DNA from: Coriobacteriia bacterium
GTDB lineage: Bacteria > Actinomycetota > Coriobacteriia > Anaerosomatales > Anaerosomataceae
Length of the DNA stretch: 64,000 nt
Assembly: GCA_030652115.1 (NCBI GenBank)
Contig: JAUSBK010000010.1
Span: forward strand, 186,001-250,000
Direction: 5' to 3'
Shown: one piece after another, positions 1-6,760 of the stretch
How positions within the stretch are numbered: the first letter of the stretch is position 1
Layout of the letters: each line of letters starts with the position of its first letter
Program-made: the position numbers and the translations under genes
Notes under the pieces: model-generated
Databases searched by the model: none
Told to the model about the DNA's origin: nothing
Seen by the model: the letters and a program-made list of their open reading frames with translations, nothing else

Positions 1-334
1 GCCCCAAGGATTCAGCACTCGCGTAAGCACCAAGCCGAGTGTCTCCCAGCTCCCGCAGCAGGGCGTATCCGGAACGCGCTAGCTGGACCTCAATCAGACG
101 GACGGCCTCGTCAGGGCGGAGACCGAGCCCCGAGCTCCAGTACGAGGCATCGAGCTCAGATAGGTAGAGATAATGCTTGGACGGGTCGAGACCGGCGCAA
201 GGAAGCATGCATTCGGCGTCTGTCAGGAATGGTGCCAAGGCGTAGGGTGCAAGCGGATACCCTCGTCGGGGGAAGTCGGCAACTCGAACACCTACCGGCA
301 TCAGGGGAAGAATGTCGAGTACGTTCGGGCACAT
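1..334 (-). CDS. Unknown protein, N-terminal part only (runs off the left edge)
   Basis: An open minus-strand frame starts at ATG 334 and reaches base 1 without a stop, giving 111 N-terminal residues. It begins MCPNVLDILPLMPVG and includes YPLAPYALAPFL and SKHYLYLSELDASYW. The start lies only 3 nt after the radical-SAM stop codon, with an AGGAAG ribosome-binding site inside the end of that gene, so it is translated as the last visible gene of the operon. I recognise no family in the visible part; no signal peptide or membrane segment is seen. Its place makes it a probable functional partner of the helicase/ATPase/radical-SAM genes upstream. The C-terminal part lies outside the window. Confidence 0.7.
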   Translation of the reverse strand, partial: MCPNVLDILPLMPVGVRVADFPRRGYPLAPYALAPFLTDAECMLPCAGLDPSKHYLYLSELDASYWSSGLGLRPDEAVRLIEVQLARSGYALLRELGDTRLGAYASAESLG

Positions 335-337
335 CCT

Positions 338-1537
338 CTACTTCTTCCTGCCACCTAGTAGTGTCGTGTTGATTGCCCTAATCTCGTCCTCTTCATGAGA
401 CGACGCGTCAAGGCCAAGGCTTGCCGCTGCGGCACTTCTCGCGGCCCGCGGAATGCGCTCGAGCTGGGAGCTATACCGTTCTCGTGGGATGCCATATCGA
501 ATGCAGATGTTGTTGAGCCTGACCGTGCGCCTTAGTCCCCTAACCTGCTCATCTCGCCACCCATCCGCCAAGAAGTACTCGTCCCGGGTCTGGCTCTTGG
601 CGCGTGGGTCGTAGCCATCCACGTACCTATCCAGCGGCCGATACCGGCAATCGGACACCTGTACGCCCCACTCAGAGCATTGCTCGACCTTTGCAAAGAC
701 CTCCTCTGGAGCTCGGTCATGGTTGTACAGCATGAACACCTGCAGTTGGCGGTTTGAGTAACCGGCATCTCGCAGAATGTCGAGCTGGGTGAGGATGTTC
801 TCATCATCCGCCAAGGGGCCATCCCAAGCGATGCGGGCATTGCGGAACCTCGCAGCCTTCAACAGGGCCGCTAGGTGAGGCTTCTCCTGTAGTATCCGGC
901 CGTCAAGCCCGCTCTGGCTCTCGCAACTTATGACCCTCCCGTCCAGCCGGAAATCCGCAAGTTCCTCAAGGATGTTCTCGATGTGGGGATTCGCAAGGAG
1001 GTTGTTGTCATAGAACACCACCTTGGGCTTAACAATCTCGTTCTTGATGGTCTTCTTCGCCTTGTACTTTGGCTCGATTCGATAAGTGCCGCAGAAGTCA
1101 CACCGACGAACACAGCCACGAGATGCGTGGACTATCTGGTAGTCAGTCTCCACCAGGTCAAAAGCAGGTGCCTCGGCCTCTGCCTCCGGGTGTATGCCTT
1201 CATGAACCTCGTCAGATCCCGTGAACTCCTTGCACTCCTTCGGCGCCAGCGATGCGTAGATTCCTCCAACCCTAATCAACGCACCTGGGAACAAGCTCCG
1301 AGCGCCTTGGACGGCCTCGCGCACGTACTCAGACCAGAATGTGAACAGTGATGTGACGTACACCTCATCCGGTGTGAATCCGTCAAGCGGGTCACCCCAG
1401 ACGACAAGTTTCACGTCGTCGCCTAGGCTTCTGCGCCAGGCGCCAATCTTCAGGAGCCCGACTGGCAGATAGTCTCTGTGGAAGTGGCTCTTCCTGGGAA
1501 CCGGAAAACGGGGCTGGACCAGAAGTACCTGCGCCAC
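338..1537 (-). CDS. Radical SAM protein with B12-binding-like N-terminus
   Basis: This 399-aa protein has a CxxxCxxC cluster motif (CVRRCDFC, Cys142/146/149) that binds the 4Fe-4S cluster of radical-SAM enzymes. The motif is preceded by a Rossmann-like stretch (VLLVQPRFPVP, VYVTSLFTFW, IRVGGIYASL) resembling the cobalamin-binding domain of B12-dependent radical-SAM proteins, although I see no clear DxHxxG motif. The C-terminal half includes VVFYDNNLLANP. The start chosen is GTG 1537, which shares one base with the stop of the upstream gene and has GGGAGAG before it; a longer upstream frame looks non-coding. The substrate is unknown. Linkage to a helicase and an SMC-like ATPase suggests a nucleic-acid or nucleotide chemistry, but this is inference. 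Confidence 0.8.
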   Translation of the reverse strand: MAQVLLVQPRFPVPRKSHFHRDYLPVGLLKIGAWRRSLGDDVKLVVWGDPLDGFTPDEVYVTSLFTFWSEYVREAVQGARSLFPGALIRVGGIYASLAPKECKEFTGSDEVHEGIHPEAEAEAPAFDLVETDYQIVHASRGCVRRCDFCGTYRIEPKYKAKKTIKNEIVKPKVVFYDNNLLANPHIENILEELADFRLDGRVISCESQSGLDGRILQEKPHLAALLKAARFRNARIAWDGPLADDENILTQLDILRDAGYSNRQLQVFMLYNHDRAPEEVFAKVEQCSEWGVQVSDCRYRPLDRYVDGYDPRAKSQTRDEYFLADGWRDEQVRGLRRTVRLNNICIRYGIPRERYSSQLERIPRAARSAAAASLGLDASSHEEDEIRAINTTLLGGRKK

Positions 1538-1983
1538 TACTCTCCCTGCCCGTCCTGCCGGGCGAACGGCCACTGAACTTCTGACTCGCTCGCGGCCGTG
1601 AAGACCTGCGCGTTGAGCCAGAAGCGGAAGACGTCCATGTCCGCGAGCTTCTCCTCCAGCATGTCGATACCTGCATTGGCGTAGGTCTCCGCAATCGCAT
1701 AGCACTCATTCATGCTGGGCGGAGAGCTCGAGGGTTGACTAGCGAGTCCAATCGCCGCCATCAGTCCGCGGTCGGCTGCGCTCAAGCCGCTTGTCTTGAT
1801 GTAGCTATCCTTGCGACCCAGAGGCTTGGAGGTCGACATTCTGAAACCGTACGAGGCGGCCAGTAGGAAGGCCTCCTTGTTTTCGGCTCTCGACTTTTCT
1901 GTAGACAAGGCCTGGACCAGGATGCCGAAGAGCGCCTTCTTGTCGGTTTCCACGTACAGGTTGGTTGCTTCGTTGCTCTCCAT
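1537..1983 (-). CDS. Unknown 148-aa protein of the helicase/ATPase/radical-SAM operon
   Basis: This small soluble protein starts at ATG 1983, one base after the ATPase stop, and its stop codon overlaps the radical-SAM start. It contains KEAFLLAASYGFR, a Ser/Pro-rich linker (SQPSSSPPS) and a helical C-terminal half (CYAIAETYANAGIDMLEEK). No catalytic motif, metal ligand set or membrane segment is visible. Small DndE-like or adaptor proteins often accompany DndD-like ATPases, but I do not see DndE sequence features here and do not claim homology. Its tight coupling on both sides argues that its product is needed in proportion to its neighbours. Confidence 0.65.
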   Translation of the reverse strand: MESNEATNLYVETDKKALFGILVQALSTEKSRAENKEAFLLAASYGFRMSTSKPLGRKDSYIKTSGLSAADRGLMAAIGLASQPSSSPPSMNECYAIAETYANAGIDMLEEKLADMDVFRFWLNAQVFTAASESEVQWPFARQDGQGE

Positions 1984-1984
1984 C

Positions 1985-3979
1985 TCAGCGCTCCGTCACA
2001 CTCGTGGACTGTTCTCGTTGGTCGAAGGCCATGTCCATGACCTTCAGGGCAGGTAGTGAAGCCCTCAGTGCTGTGATGACAGCATCATCGAATTCGCCGG
2101 GCTTCATAAGCAGGGCGAGCTGCCGGTCCTTCAGGTTTTCCCCAATGCTCTCTGCAACGCTGACTCGTGTTGACGGGTCCAGGTTCACGAGCGGACTATC
2201 GAAGATGAGCGGAGGGCTATCGAAACCGGATACCTCCCCCAGCGCCTGGCCGAACGCTATGGCGAGGCACACATTCTCTCCACCACTCAGGCTGCCAGTA
2301 GCTTCCCATCCATCCGACGTGTCCACGGATACGTGATAGTCGTCATCCACCGTCGCCGCGGTGTAAGTCTCGCCCTTCCATACCATCATGTGCTTGAAGG
2401 CCGTGTCTAGAGCCCCAGAGACCCTCGCCCGAGCGGTTCCGAGCAGGTCCTCATAGACCTGCTCGGCGGCATCCAGGCACCTTTCGGTGAATTCCAGGGA
2501 TGCAGCAGTCTTCTGTCTTGAAGCGTCCTTCCTTAACTCAAGCTTGTAAGCCTTTTCGGTCTTCTCAAGCTGTGCCTGCGCGCTGTCTCTGTCCTTCTTG
2601 TCGGAGGTTATGGCCTTGTCAGCGTCCGACAGCAGGTGCTGGGCCTTCGCCCTCTGGTCCTTGACAAGGCCCACCTCGGGGTTGACTCCGCCCAGCGCAT
2701 CGAGAGTGTTGCCGTGCTCCACTACAGCGTTTTGGCACCTCGCAATTTCCGAGTCCAGGGTGGACATCTGTTCTCGGACTTGCGAGGTCTGACGCTGGAA
2801 GGTCGCGGCTCGGTCTCGCCCAACCGCTATCCCGCTCTCATGCTCCATCAGGAACTGTCCGAGCTCCCCAACACGCATCTTCTCGGGCAAGAGCGATTCG
2901 ACCTCGGCGTACTCTGTGGTGCCTGGTGTCAGCGGCCTGCGGCAGATGCACGACTGCCTTGATGGAGACAGTAGCTCTCTTAGATACTCCGCATCGATTG
3001 GGGGAGGATACCTGTGCGCGGCCTTCTCGGTCGCCACCAACCGCTCGGCTTTGACCAGCGCATCCTGCGCCAACACGAATCCGGCGGAGGCAGCTACTGT
3101 CGTCCTGAGCTGCTCCTCTAGAGCGACGTAGTTGCGCTCTGCTTCAGCCAGACCAGACCGGGCCGCCTTCAGCTTCAGGTCCGCCTCGTAGGCGTCCTGA
3201 TGCACTTCGAGCTTGGCATCAAGCTCCGCGATTTCTGCAGCCAGAGAGTCGACTGCATCAGTCTTCTTGGCGATTGCCTCGTCGAGGTTCTGAACTCTAT
3301 CCGTGTAGTCACTCACATCTTTGGCCAGGCGTTCCAAGTGTTCGCCCGCCCCGCCGCCAGAGACGCTGAACCAGTCTCGTCTCACGTCCCCCAGCCGCTT
3401 GATGAGCCGCTCGAGCACGTCAATCTGTGCGATGGACAAGACAGCCTGCTGGACCTTGTCTGATTCGGTGTCATGAATGAACTGCTGCATGCGCTCAAGG
3501 TTCAGCATGTAGTAAGGGCGGATGCGATTGGGGAGGTATCTCTCGACCCACTCCCTGGCCTCGTCCTGCCCGAGGGTTGTCCAGTCGGAGTTCGGTTGAC
3601 TCAACTGAACCGTCAACTCCGACTTGCCTTTCGGCTCCACGTGAGTGGGACCCACAACCCTGAACGCCCGCTTCCGGGTAATACGCACCGAAGTTCGGTC
3701 GTCTAGCATGAAGAGAAGCTGGACCGAAGCCTCCGGCTCCTCTCCCGGTTGCAGACCCTCCCCTAACCTCCCCTTGTTCACGAAGGGCAGGCTCCTATTG
3801 CCGTCGACGGCGTAGAGCTCCTCATCGTAGAGGCACCAGTTGATTGCGTTGAGCAGGTTTGTCTTCCCCGCTCCCACGTGGGCCACCAGGAGCGTAGCTT
3901 GACTCAGCTCACCGTCCTTCGGCAGCTCCAGGTCGCGATACTGGCGATAGTTCCGTATGCGAATCTTGGCCAACCTCAT
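1985..3979 (-). CDS. SMC/Rad50/DndD-like AAA ATPase with Cys hook
   Basis: This 664-aa P-loop ATPase is built like Rad50 and DndD. The N-terminus is MRLAKIRIRNYRQYRDLEL, with Walker A AHVGAGKT at residues 33-40. Long coiled-coil arms run from about 215 to 320 and 375 to 500 on either side of a central C-x-C hook (CICRRPL, Cys344/346). The ABC signature LSGGEN is near 564 and Walker B LIFDSPLVNLD near 591. Such ATPases use dimerisation to sense or load onto DNA. The ATG at 3979 overlaps the upstream stop (ATGA), so a longer frame was rejected. The hook is C-x-C rather than the classic CxxC of Rad50. It is unlike housekeeping SMC, RecF or RecN in length and context, and a defence or DNA-modification role is likely. 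Confidence 0.8.
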   Translation of the reverse strand: MRLAKIRIRNYRQYRDLELPKDGELSQATLLVAHVGAGKTNLLNAINWCLYDEELYAVDGNRSLPFVNKGRLGEGLQPGEEPEASVQLLFMLDDRTSVRITRKRAFRVVGPTHVEPKGKSELTVQLSQPNSDWTTLGQDEAREWVERYLPNRIRPYYMLNLERMQQFIHDTESDKVQQAVLSIAQIDVLERLIKRLGDVRRDWFSVSGGGAGEHLERLAKDVSDYTDRVQNLDEAIAKKTDAVDSLAAEIAELDAKLEVHQDAYEADLKLKAARSGLAEAERNYVALEEQLRTTVAASAGFVLAQDALVKAERLVATEKAAHRYPPPIDAEYLRELLSPSRQSCICRRPLTPGTTEYAEVESLLPEKMRVGELGQFLMEHESGIAVGRDRAATFQRQTSQVREQMSTLDSEIARCQNAVVEHGNTLDALGGVNPEVGLVKDQRAKAQHLLSDADKAITSDKKDRDSAQAQLEKTEKAYKLELRKDASRQKTAASLEFTERCLDAAEQVYEDLLGTARARVSGALDTAFKHMMVWKGETYTAATVDDDYHVSVDTSDGWEATGSLSGGENVCLAIAFGQALGEVSGFDSPPLIFDSPLVNLDPSTRVSVAESIGENLKDRQLALLMKPGEFDDAVITALRASLPALKVMDMAFDQREQSTSVTER

Positions 3980-4167
3980 TGCGCGCCTCCGCTCGCAGAG
4001 GACTGTCCGCTGGGGAGGTGCTTCTGCAAGAGCATCTTGTACTCGCTCTTGAACGAGCGACCGCTCTCGGACCCCTGCTCGAAATCCACTAGCTCGAGCA
4101 GACACTCCTTGACGCCAGGGTCAGTAGCAAGCTGCTCAATCTTCTCGATTATCGACTTGTCGCTCAT
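3976..4167 (-). CDS. Small 63-aa acidic protein between helicase and ATPase
   Basis: A short gene starts at MSDKSIIEKIEQL (ATG 4167), 16 nt after the helicase stop, and ends in an ATGA overlap with the ATPase start. The product is predicted to be helical (KECLLELVDFEQ), has a polar Ser-rich tail (LPSGQSSASGGAQ) and no recognisable domain. An upstream ATG at 4203 would overlap the helicase gene and is less likely. Its tight placement suggests a small subunit or adaptor for the ATPase or helicase. The family is not recognised. Confidence 0.6.
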   Translation of the reverse strand: MSDKSIIEKIEQLATDPGVKECLLELVDFEQGSESGRSFKSEYKMLLQKHLPSGQSSASGGAQ

Positions 4168-4183
4168 CCCATCCTCACAGTCA

Positions 4184-6298
4184 CTAGTCCAACAGTTGCC
4201 CAAGCTCGCCTAGCACTCTGGCGTGCACTTCTGCGCCGTTCTCCGCAGTGGATGCGAACTCATTCAGTCGCTCCAACTCCTTCCTGAACAGTCTGATTTC
4301 CACGTCTCGCAGTTGGGCATCGCCAGACTCACCAAGCCCCGGCCTGACGAGCACGTCATAGATGACGGCTCTATGCTTTCCAGGAGCTCTTCGAAGTAGG
4401 CGTCCTCTCCGCTGGATGAACTCCGTTGGGTTGGTCGAACTTGCGAGAATCAACCCAACACGCGCTGACGGCACATCAACGCCAGCGTCGAGACACTTCA
4501 TGGCAATCAGCACGGGAATGTCGCCGCTCCCGAACTTCTCCAGCAAGAACTCCCTTTCGCTCATCCCACCATATCGAGCTTCGGGCTTGGTGCCCTCCGC
4601 ACCCGTAAACTCGGAGAACACCAAACAACGACCAGCCAAGACTTGCTCCACCGCCAGCATCTGTTGCCTGTCAAAACAGTAGATGATGAGCCGAGTCACA
4701 TCGGGACCCAGCTCCTGAAGCACATCGTCCAGAGCATTCAGCTTCTGCCGCGCGCACTTCACCACACTCGCCCTCATGAAGAGGAACCTCTCGTCGAACG
4801 ACTTATCGCCGTCGGACCCACCCGAAGCCCAGCCCGCCTGCGCCGCCTTCTTCGTCAGCGCCACGTAGTCGTCAAGCTCGTCATCCTCTAGTGATACAAA
4901 CAGCGGCTTGTAGGTGTAGGGGGTCAAGATGGTCAAGGACGTACCGGGGATGACAGTCCTCAGAGCCTCCTCAATCATGAAGGAGTATGGCTCGTGCCCG
5001 AAGTAGTCCTCGAGAACCGCCGTGCCTTCGTCGTCGAACCACCTGTACGGCGTCGCGCTTAGCCCCAGTCGAGCGGTGTAACTGCTCGACAACGCCGCGC
5101 GTAATCTCGAGGCGCCGAGTCCATGAACCTCATCGCCTATCAGCATTGCTTCGGCAATCGGCGACCTTCCCACCAACTCCACGGCAGACAGGAAATCGTC
5201 GCCAGCAGCGGTATTCTGGACGGCGACGACCACCCCGACCCTCCGGGTCCCGGAGGCGACGCGTGAGGCGCACTCCAATACCGAGCTTCTCCACTTGGCG
5301 TTTCCGCCGTGAGCAACGACAGTTGGCACGCCCGGGAAGAACCTGGTCACATCCCGCATCCATTGCGTTGCCAAGTGCTGATACGGAACAGAGATAACGA
5401 GGAGAGTGTGGGGATTGGCTTCGGAGTAGCGCCTCGCGCACTCTAGGGCGGTGACTGTCTTGCCCGTCCCGGTCGCCATTTGGAGTAGTTTGCGACACCC
5501 GCTCTCAAGCCATGCGTCTACCGCCCGAAGTTGGTGCTCCCACAGTCCAACCGGGCAAGAGGAGACTGCCGACGCTGGAGAATAGGCCTCGAGGCGCAGC
5601 TCGCTTAGGGAATCCGGTGCGTACTCGAGAAGTTTGCGGGACACAGCTTCCGGGACGCTCATGACCCGTGCACCGGGGACATCATCGTTCCAGTAGCGTT
5701 CGAACAGGCTGACATCGTCGGCCACGTATGCAGCCTCTACCGCTTCCCAGCTGCGGAAGACCTTGAAGTGCTCAAGGTTGTCCAACCACCCAGAAGCAGT
5801 CTCATTCATCGAGCCGCTGAACGACACTTCATTACCCGAGGCGTCTCTGAGGATGCCAATCTTCTGATGGAAGAGCCCCGAGCCATCAGCGGCTGCGGGT
5901 ACCGCTACTCTCATCTCGAGCGTGCCGTTCCTGAGCATCCAGCACATGGCACGGACGTGGTCACGAGCAAGAATGTCTCCCAGGGTGTCGAAGTCGAGTG
6001 CTTGGAGCATGAACTCGCCAAGTCGCTCGCCAAGCGATTCCCGCGACAACTCCGCTAGTGCGACAGCATCAGCGCTGCTCAAGCGTGGCGAACAAATCAG
6101 CCTGATGCGACCTCCATTCTCGAGCAACCCCGAGATGCCCCGCGCGGCCACAGCTAGTGAAGTCGATGAGAAGAACCCGGCAATCCGGTCGTAGCTCAGT
6201 GAGGCAGACAGTGCCGGGACGTAGAAGGAGGTCAGCACCGACCGGCCCATCTCTCCGGAATCGTAGCTGCGGAGAAGGTCCAAACCCTGCAATCCCAT
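4184..6298 (-). CDS. PLD-family nuclease fused to SF2 (DEAD/DEAH-type) helicase
   Basis: This is a two-part protein of about 704 aa. The N-terminal 230 residues form a phospholipase-D-like nuclease domain: YDRIAGFFSSTSLAVAARG, then FHQKIGILRD (~143) and FSGSMNET (~160), the H-x-K and GSxN parts of the PLD active site. The rest is a superfamily-2 helicase with a Q-motif-like LWEHQLRAVDAW, Walker A MATGTGKT (~275-281), DEVH box (GDEVHGLG), motif III LSATP and motif VI QRRGRLLR. Start 6298 was chosen over 6310 and 6397 because GGGAG lies 5 nt upstream; 6310 is possible. This architecture is frequent in phage-defence and restriction-like cassettes. It is the first gene of the operon. Confidence 0.82.
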   Translation of the reverse strand: MGLQGLDLLRSYDSGEMGRSVLTSFYVPALSASLSYDRIAGFFSSTSLAVAARGISGLLENGGRIRLICSPRLSSADAVALAELSRESLGERLGEFMLQALDFDTLGDILARDHVRAMCWMLRNGTLEMRVAVPAAADGSGLFHQKIGILRDASGNEVSFSGSMNETASGWLDNLEHFKVFRSWEAVEAAYVADDVSLFERYWNDDVPGARVMSVPEAVSRKLLEYAPDSLSELRLEAYSPASAVSSCPVGLWEHQLRAVDAWLESGCRKLLQMATGTGKTVTALECARRYSEANPHTLLVISVPYQHLATQWMRDVTRFFPGVPTVVAHGGNAKWRSSVLECASRVASGTRRVGVVVAVQNTAAGDDFLSAVELVGRSPIAEAMLIGDEVHGLGASRLRAALSSSYTARLGLSATPYRWFDDEGTAVLEDYFGHEPYSFMIEEALRTVIPGTSLTILTPYTYKPLFVSLEDDELDDYVALTKKAAQAGWASGGSDGDKSFDERFLFMRASVVKCARQKLNALDDVLQELGPDVTRLIIYCFDRQQMLAVEQVLAGRCLVFSEFTGAEGTKPEARYGGMSEREFLLEKFGSGDIPVLIAMKCLDAGVDVPSARVGLILASSTNPTEFIQRRGRLLRRAPGKHRAVIYDVLVRPGLGESGDAQLRDVEIRLFRKELERLNEFASTAENGAEVHARVLGELGQLLD

Positions 6299-6633: not shown

Positions 6634-6677
<44 letters not shown>

Positions 6678-6760
6678 AATCTGCGCCACCCGAGGGCAGC
6701 GAAGCATCATAGTACGGCTCGCGCGACGTCACATCAAGCGCCGGACCGCACGCTGTCGCA

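Follow-up and report, generated by a model that had tools for sequence, protein, structure and literature searches.

The DndCDEA-PbeABCD system of Haloterrigena jeotgali has its Pbe genes in the order pbeA, pbeB (66 amino acids, aa), pbeC and pbeD (152 aa), and its PbeABCD part stops viral DNA replication in a phosphorothioate-dependent manner (PMC6459918). A later reinterpretation of PbeABCD takes PbeC for a CxC ABC ATPase and PbeD for a cognate of DndE, and suggests that systems without DndC may rely on other kinds of modification (PMC10853773). DISARM ordinarily occurs with the methyltransferases DrmMI and/or DrmMII (PMC9142583). The self-mark of many DndC-less Pbe/CxC systems is left open by PMC6459918 and PMC10853773. 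Here we describe an operon of a Coriobacteriia bacterium (GCA_030652115.1) in which a radical S-adenosylmethionine (SAM) gene follows pbeABCD, and whose radical SAM family is a concrete, testable candidate for supplying such a mark. The operon opens a 64,000-nucleotide stretch of contig JAUSBK010000010.1 (the window; C10:186001-250000 of a 14-contig, 2.38-Mb genome). We hold it fairly probable that a portable radical SAM enzyme marks DNA as self here, in the slot of DndC or of a methyltransferase.

A PbeABCD operon without DndC

Six packed genes on the minus strand, one of them cut at the window edge, were confirmed with the tight junctions first described for them. By their sequences, four of the six are the named PbeABCD system, which has been tested experimentally elsewhere; the original prediction, which knew of no named system with this gene set, was mistaken for these four (PADLOC, NCBIfam; PMC6459918, PMC10853773). 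Its reading as a defence or DNA-modification operon was right in kind.

The first gene, pbeA (4184..6298, minus strand, start ATG 6298), encodes a phospholipase D (PLD) nuclease domain (HxKx5D) and a superfamily 2 helicase. Its product, given as a 737-aa protein, matched PADLOC PbeA (6e-203), NCBIfam TIGR04095 dnd_restrict_1 (8.8e-114; 381 bits, under the 600-bit cut-off of that model) and Pfam ResIII and Helicase_C, with PLDc_2 just below cut-off. The putative pbeB (about 3976..4167, minus strand) was assigned from position and size: its small product measures about 63 aa from an inner ATG or 75 aa from TTG 4203, and had no profile match in Pfam, PADLOC or NCBIfam. It overlaps pbeC by ATGA at 3979. 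The pbeC gene (1985..3979, minus strand) encodes a DndD-like ABC ATPase (PADLOC PbeC, 5.8e-67; Pfam AAA_23, 7.9e-12), whose translation has a CIC (CxC) hook in the middle of the coiled coil. The 148-aa product of pbeD (1537..1983, minus strand) is a candidate DndE-like protein from its position and a weak, below-cut-off match to NCBIfam TIGR04062 dnd_assoc_4 (2.8e-5). Gene order, the sizes of the small PbeB and PbeD, the domains and the CxC hook of PbeC agree with PbeABCD of H. jeotgali and with the CxC ABC-ATPase systems. Two of three proteins originally listed as unknown are PbeB and PbeD.

The radical SAM gene (338..1537, minus strand, start GTG 1537) overlaps pbeD by TAGTG and encodes a candidate DNA self-marking enzyme with an N-terminal B12-like Rossmann domain. 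Profile matches, an AlphaFold2 model and a fold search upheld what had been assigned from the sequence alone: a PLD-helicase, an ATPase with a CxC hook in its coiled coil, and a radical SAM protein with a B12-like part. An independent genome (L016 = G111; PbeA 45% and radical SAM enzyme 59% identical) shares all six genes and their order, so the order is not due to chance.

Unlike the H. jeotgali system, the window genome lacks dndC, has the radical SAM gene and a 728-aa sigma/helix-turn-helix (HTH) gene after pbeD, and carries the locus on an integrative element in tRNA-Pro. A profile search for DndC (TIGR03183) had no match anywhere in the window genome, nor in six other genomes in which a radical SAM gene is linked to a Pbe or ParB/DGQHR-type cassette. 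The same search was positive in two Dnd-Pbe genomes (G653 and G538; 7.9e-201 and 7.6e-192). The absence of dndC, first noticed in the window, thus extends to the whole genome and became the key point of the analysis.

Relatives of the radical SAM gene accompany unlike restriction cassettes

One scan of 84,980 species, with the radical SAM sequence alone as query and its context unused, gave 35 loci in archaea and bacteria, 24 of them close (42-59% identity). The close loci belong to Actinomycetota, Planctomycetota, Chloroflexota, Bacillota, Bacteroidota, Nitrospirota and several archaeal groups, lineages which we take to be largely anaerobic. Neighbouring genes were clustered and the cluster representatives named via Pfam/PADLOC; the counts include the window. 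At all 23 classifiable loci the radical SAM gene stands with a restriction-type cassette: Pbe at eight, DISARM at ten, HATPase-c9 at two, ParB_N at two (one with a DpnII/MboI restriction endonuclease domain) and a BrxC/HerA-like set at one (L022). Two cut loci (L019, L039) were left unclassified and out of the 23.

At the eight Pbe loci the position of the radical SAM gene is constant across phyla and domains. This bears on the idea of a plain PbeABCD defence operon whose two extra genes are unrelated cargo. Defence islands do gather cargo and gene 6 is not universal, but the overlap of the radical SAM gene with pbeD and its fixed place contradict the idea for that gene, and we give it next to no probability overall; for gene 6 it may be true.

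Eight of the ten DISARM loci have drmA-B-C (plus drmE or a gene for an 1100-aa protein), and two are cut at the contig end with only the fourth (1100-aa) gene visible. The radical SAM relatives end, or adjoin, these drmA-drmB-drmC-drmE-like cassettes. Drm genes are absent from the window locus itself (drmA and drmB were not found). Methanoperedens is of the DISARM type. In contrast to described DISARM with drmMI/drmMII (PMC9142583), the radical SAM DISARM loci have no C5 or Eco57I-type methyltransferase on the contig.

A maximum-likelihood tree of 22 labelled rows requires at least eight partner changes for four partner types, and sister pairs of unlike type have 100/100 support: L030 (Pbe, Nanoarchaeota) with L038 (DISARM, Euryarchaeota), and L034 (HATPase) with L036 (ParB). 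Judged from this tree, the enzyme moves among restriction modules and is not inherited with one of them.

Methyltransferases were counted by profile searches, because a regular-expression motif scan lacked sensitivity (in its first form it overlooked a THPPY enzyme already known). None of 21 radical SAM contigs examined had a C5 (PF00145) or Eco57I (PF07669) methyltransferase; PF01555 was present on two (L030, L037), and L022 has a mad2-like (methyltransferase-like) gene nearby. The mark for Pbe could instead come from a methyltransferase, housekeeping or orphan, encoded elsewhere in the genome; the radical SAM protein would then act as an accessory, repairing or removing a modification or altering it further, comparable to spore photoproduct lyase in its action on DNA. 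The window genome has PF01555 and PF00145 genes on other contigs, which would fit this, as would the methyltransferase-like genes near L030, L037 and L022 and a more distant fold match of the enzyme to that lyase (Z about 10). Such genes are, however, usually off the radical SAM contig, and restriction cassettes are linked far more tightly to the radical SAM gene than to any methyltransferase, so that we consider this explanation distinctly unlikely.

Some of these loci have further particulars. At L030 and L037 an HATPase-c9 pair lies directly before pbeA, with one radical SAM gene for both. In a Thorarchaeota metagenome-assembled genome (MAG), two tandem radical SAM paralogues lie beside HerA, BrxC-like and apparently PglZ-like genes (L022:9980-12639). 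In archaeal DISARM loci, the gene for the 1100-aa protein, which is of no known family, takes the place of drmE, with drmC on one side and the radical SAM gene on the other (L033:6644-9982 and relatives in cluster c7).

The radical SAM enzyme has a class-B-like fold

The radical SAM cluster motif CxxxCxxC lies at C142/C146/C149, and two further cysteines, C287 and C297, are invariant in the close family. Of 28 family members, 27 match Pfam Radical_SAM and 15 match B12-binding. In whole-chain comparison (VIA-align), the AlphaFold2 model (predicted local distance difference test, pLDDT, 91) matched AprD4 (Z 25.5), MgmA (23.0), TsrM (22.0) and MiaB (21.4). We conclude from the model that the protein consists of a Rossmann domain and a radical SAM core and is class-B-like. 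Identity to AprD4, MgmA, TsrM and MiaB/RimO is 12-20%; these share the whole-chain fold and CxxxCxxC with the window family, which differs in its own invariant C287/C297 and in lacking both a conserved set of N-terminal cysteines that could hold a second cluster and the DxHxxG cobalamin histidine. Some cobalamin enzymes of class B likewise lack this histidine. A search of PDB sequences with the family profile gave sub-threshold matches only, among them RimO and 9ccb. Membership in the methylthiotransferases (MiaB/RimO) was considered and rejected because the N-terminal cysteine set is not conserved.

In a Planctomycetota MAG, the enzyme is fused to a C-terminal PAPS_reduct domain (L036:5126-7219; 1.8e-24), which belongs to the superfamily of DndC. 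This fusion hints at sulphur chemistry. From it and from the fold neighbours (MgmA and TsrM; MiaB/RimO), a C-methyl or a sulphur-containing mark would be our leading guesses.

The enzyme had also been compared with viperins. It could in that case be an effector whose product upon infection is a signal or a nucleotide that is toxic or terminates chains, with Pbe or DISARM as partners or sensors. Radical SAM viperins are generally known to be antiviral, and enzymes with a Rossmann domain and a radical SAM core act on small molecules, among them AprD4, the best fold match. The comparison was not supported: no PADLOC model, viperin models included, matches the protein, and the predicted fold is B12-class-like with an N-terminal Rossmann domain. 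The PAPS-reductase fusion, the swapping among modules that ordinarily have a modification enzyme, and the viral copies, which stand apart from restriction genes and in some cases next to DNA methyltransferases (see below), also speak against an effector, which we regard as unlikely.

Viral copies and a proposed self-mark

A first scan of viral sequences with the single sequence as query had no match; a scan with the family profile found eight contigs with radical SAM relatives in IMG/VR (30-51% identity). The viral copies comprise L070-L074 (IMG/VR) and the phage records L078 and L079. Marinitoga camini virus 1, an isolate, has a more distant homologue. The invariant cysteines are kept in all five close viral copies checked, and phrog_9298, a "radical SAM domain protein" to which PHROGs assigns no function, is of the same sequence family (7.3e-32). 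Neighbouring genes include a terminase (L071), a primase and an exonuclease (L070) and DNA methyltransferases (L073, L074); virus vir520 has a methyltransferase gene near its copy. Restriction-cassette genes of the kinds listed above were not found on the viral stretches read.

The viral copies also bear on the thought that the enzyme modifies a protein or RNA part of the defence machinery, by methylthiolation or methylation of a subunit, and not DNA. The fold neighbours MiaB, RimO and MgmA do modify tRNA or protein, but Pbe, DISARM and ParB/restriction endonuclease modules have no common subunit that could be the substrate, and the viral copies occur without any such subunit. We judge this very improbable.

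We return to the proposal of a self-mark on DNA. The PbeC (CxC ABC ATPase)-PbeD (DndE-like) pair would scan host DNA, on which the radical SAM enzyme, using its [4Fe-4S] cluster and SAM, would set a small covalent mark, in place of phosphorothioation by DndCDEA or of methylation by a methyltransferase. Unmarked incoming DNA would be acted on by PbeA/B together with PbeC/D, and its replication blocked. The same enzyme may serve DISARM and other restriction cassettes as an interchangeable modification subunit, and viruses may carry it to mask their own DNA. That DNA is the substrate and the mark a protective self-signal we infer. Taken in full, the proposal is that this family makes a previously undescribed DNA self-mark, that among anaerobic archaea and bacteria Pbe, DISARM and two or more other restriction cassettes use the enzyme interchangeably as their modification subunit, and that viral copies act in counter-defence; towards this we lean slightly.

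Several points weigh against the proposal. DNA as substrate is guilt by association, and we know of no radical SAM enzyme that makes a restriction self-mark. Two of the ten DISARM assignments rest solely on the gene shared with full DISARM loci. The enzyme would not always substitute for a methyltransferase, because the cassettes at L030, L037 and L022 and some viral copies have methyltransferase-like genes close by, and the PF01555 and PF00145 methyltransferases on other contigs of the window genome could in principle mark DNA. Furthermore, 320 of 553 Pbe sets have no nearby dndCD (PMC6459918), so Pbe without Dnd is not rare.

The PbeABCD part was already known, and the new part is the radical SAM gene and its contexts, with the candidate recurring in DISARM and other cassettes. 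A literature search outside subscription papers and preprints turned up no publication that connects radical SAM enzymes with DISARM or Pbe, and an earlier description is possible. If the proposal is true, restriction-modification would gain a class of epigenetic mark based on radical chemistry; modified nucleotides not yet seen would be predicted for anaerobes and the viruses that infect them, and the radical SAM gene would be a marker for finding them.

The integrative element, gene 6 and other neighbourhoods

The Pbe genes, the radical SAM gene and gene 6 are carried by a 12,472-bp integrative element whose site is tRNA-Pro(GGG). The attachment (att) repeat at its right end (window 6635..6678) is identical over 44 bp to L002:12207-12250, the 3' part of the tRNA-Pro(GGG) region, where the repeat overlaps the tRNA gene found by ARAGORN (L002:12173-12249). 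Just inside the opposite end lies a tyrosine integrase (L002:12347-13435; Phage_integrase 4.6e-24), with an HTH_17 excisionase-like gene further inside, and the G+C content of the element is 60% against 63% and 67% in the flanks. From the repeat, the tRNA site, these two genes and the G+C content we conclude that the six-gene set is cargo of a mobile element.

The 5' part of gene 6 (1..334, minus strand, start ATG 334) encodes sigma-70 region-4-like HTH (Sigma70_r4 5.2e-4) and winged-helix-like parts. The gene extends beyond the window to contig C10:184148 and encodes 728 aa (L002:16148-18334); L016 has an 832-aa homologue in the same place. Its model was of low confidence (mean pLDDT 55) and was kept out of the fold search. 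A specific partnership of gene 6 with the radical SAM gene was rejected: the Dnd-Pbe genome G538 (L052) encodes a similar protein, resembling the C-terminal domain of RNA polymerase alpha (helix-hairpin-helix), ahead of pbeA, and a relative occurs in an unrelated cassette of G075. In such cassettes gene 6 likely has an accessory role, as a protein that binds DNA or regulates.

PbeA was also surveyed in 396 genomes sampled from the phylum. At a loose cut-off TIGR04095 matches almost all genomes; only matches below 1e-90 were counted, which gave strong PbeA in seven genomes, whose neighbourhoods were read. Dnd genes are present in G653 and G538, and the present radical SAM gene in the window genome; the close radical SAM family was found in none of the other six. 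In G346 and G630, Pbe stands with a PAPS (3'-phosphoadenosine-5'-phosphosulfate)-reductase-like gene and an AAA ATPase gene of about 1180 aa, with no Dnd (L055:3622-8023, L056:3898-8326). In G042 and G080, of the same class as the window genome, the gene directly upstream of pbeA encodes a divergent radical SAM protein, which has RGCxxxCxxC and no Pfam match (L053:1-1944, L054:6229-7767).

More distant radical SAM relatives, found on plasmids of rhizobia and Roseomonas and in G079, are accompanied by DGQHR/ParB proteins, a helicase and an ATPase, and extend the link to DNA-modification-type contexts. The combination of a DGQHR/ParB-type protein, a helicase and a distant radical SAM protein (L009:10935-15212, L010:10944-15185, L015:4243-9491), joined in L009 and L010 by an ATP-binding protein, is possibly a separate modification/defence cassette.

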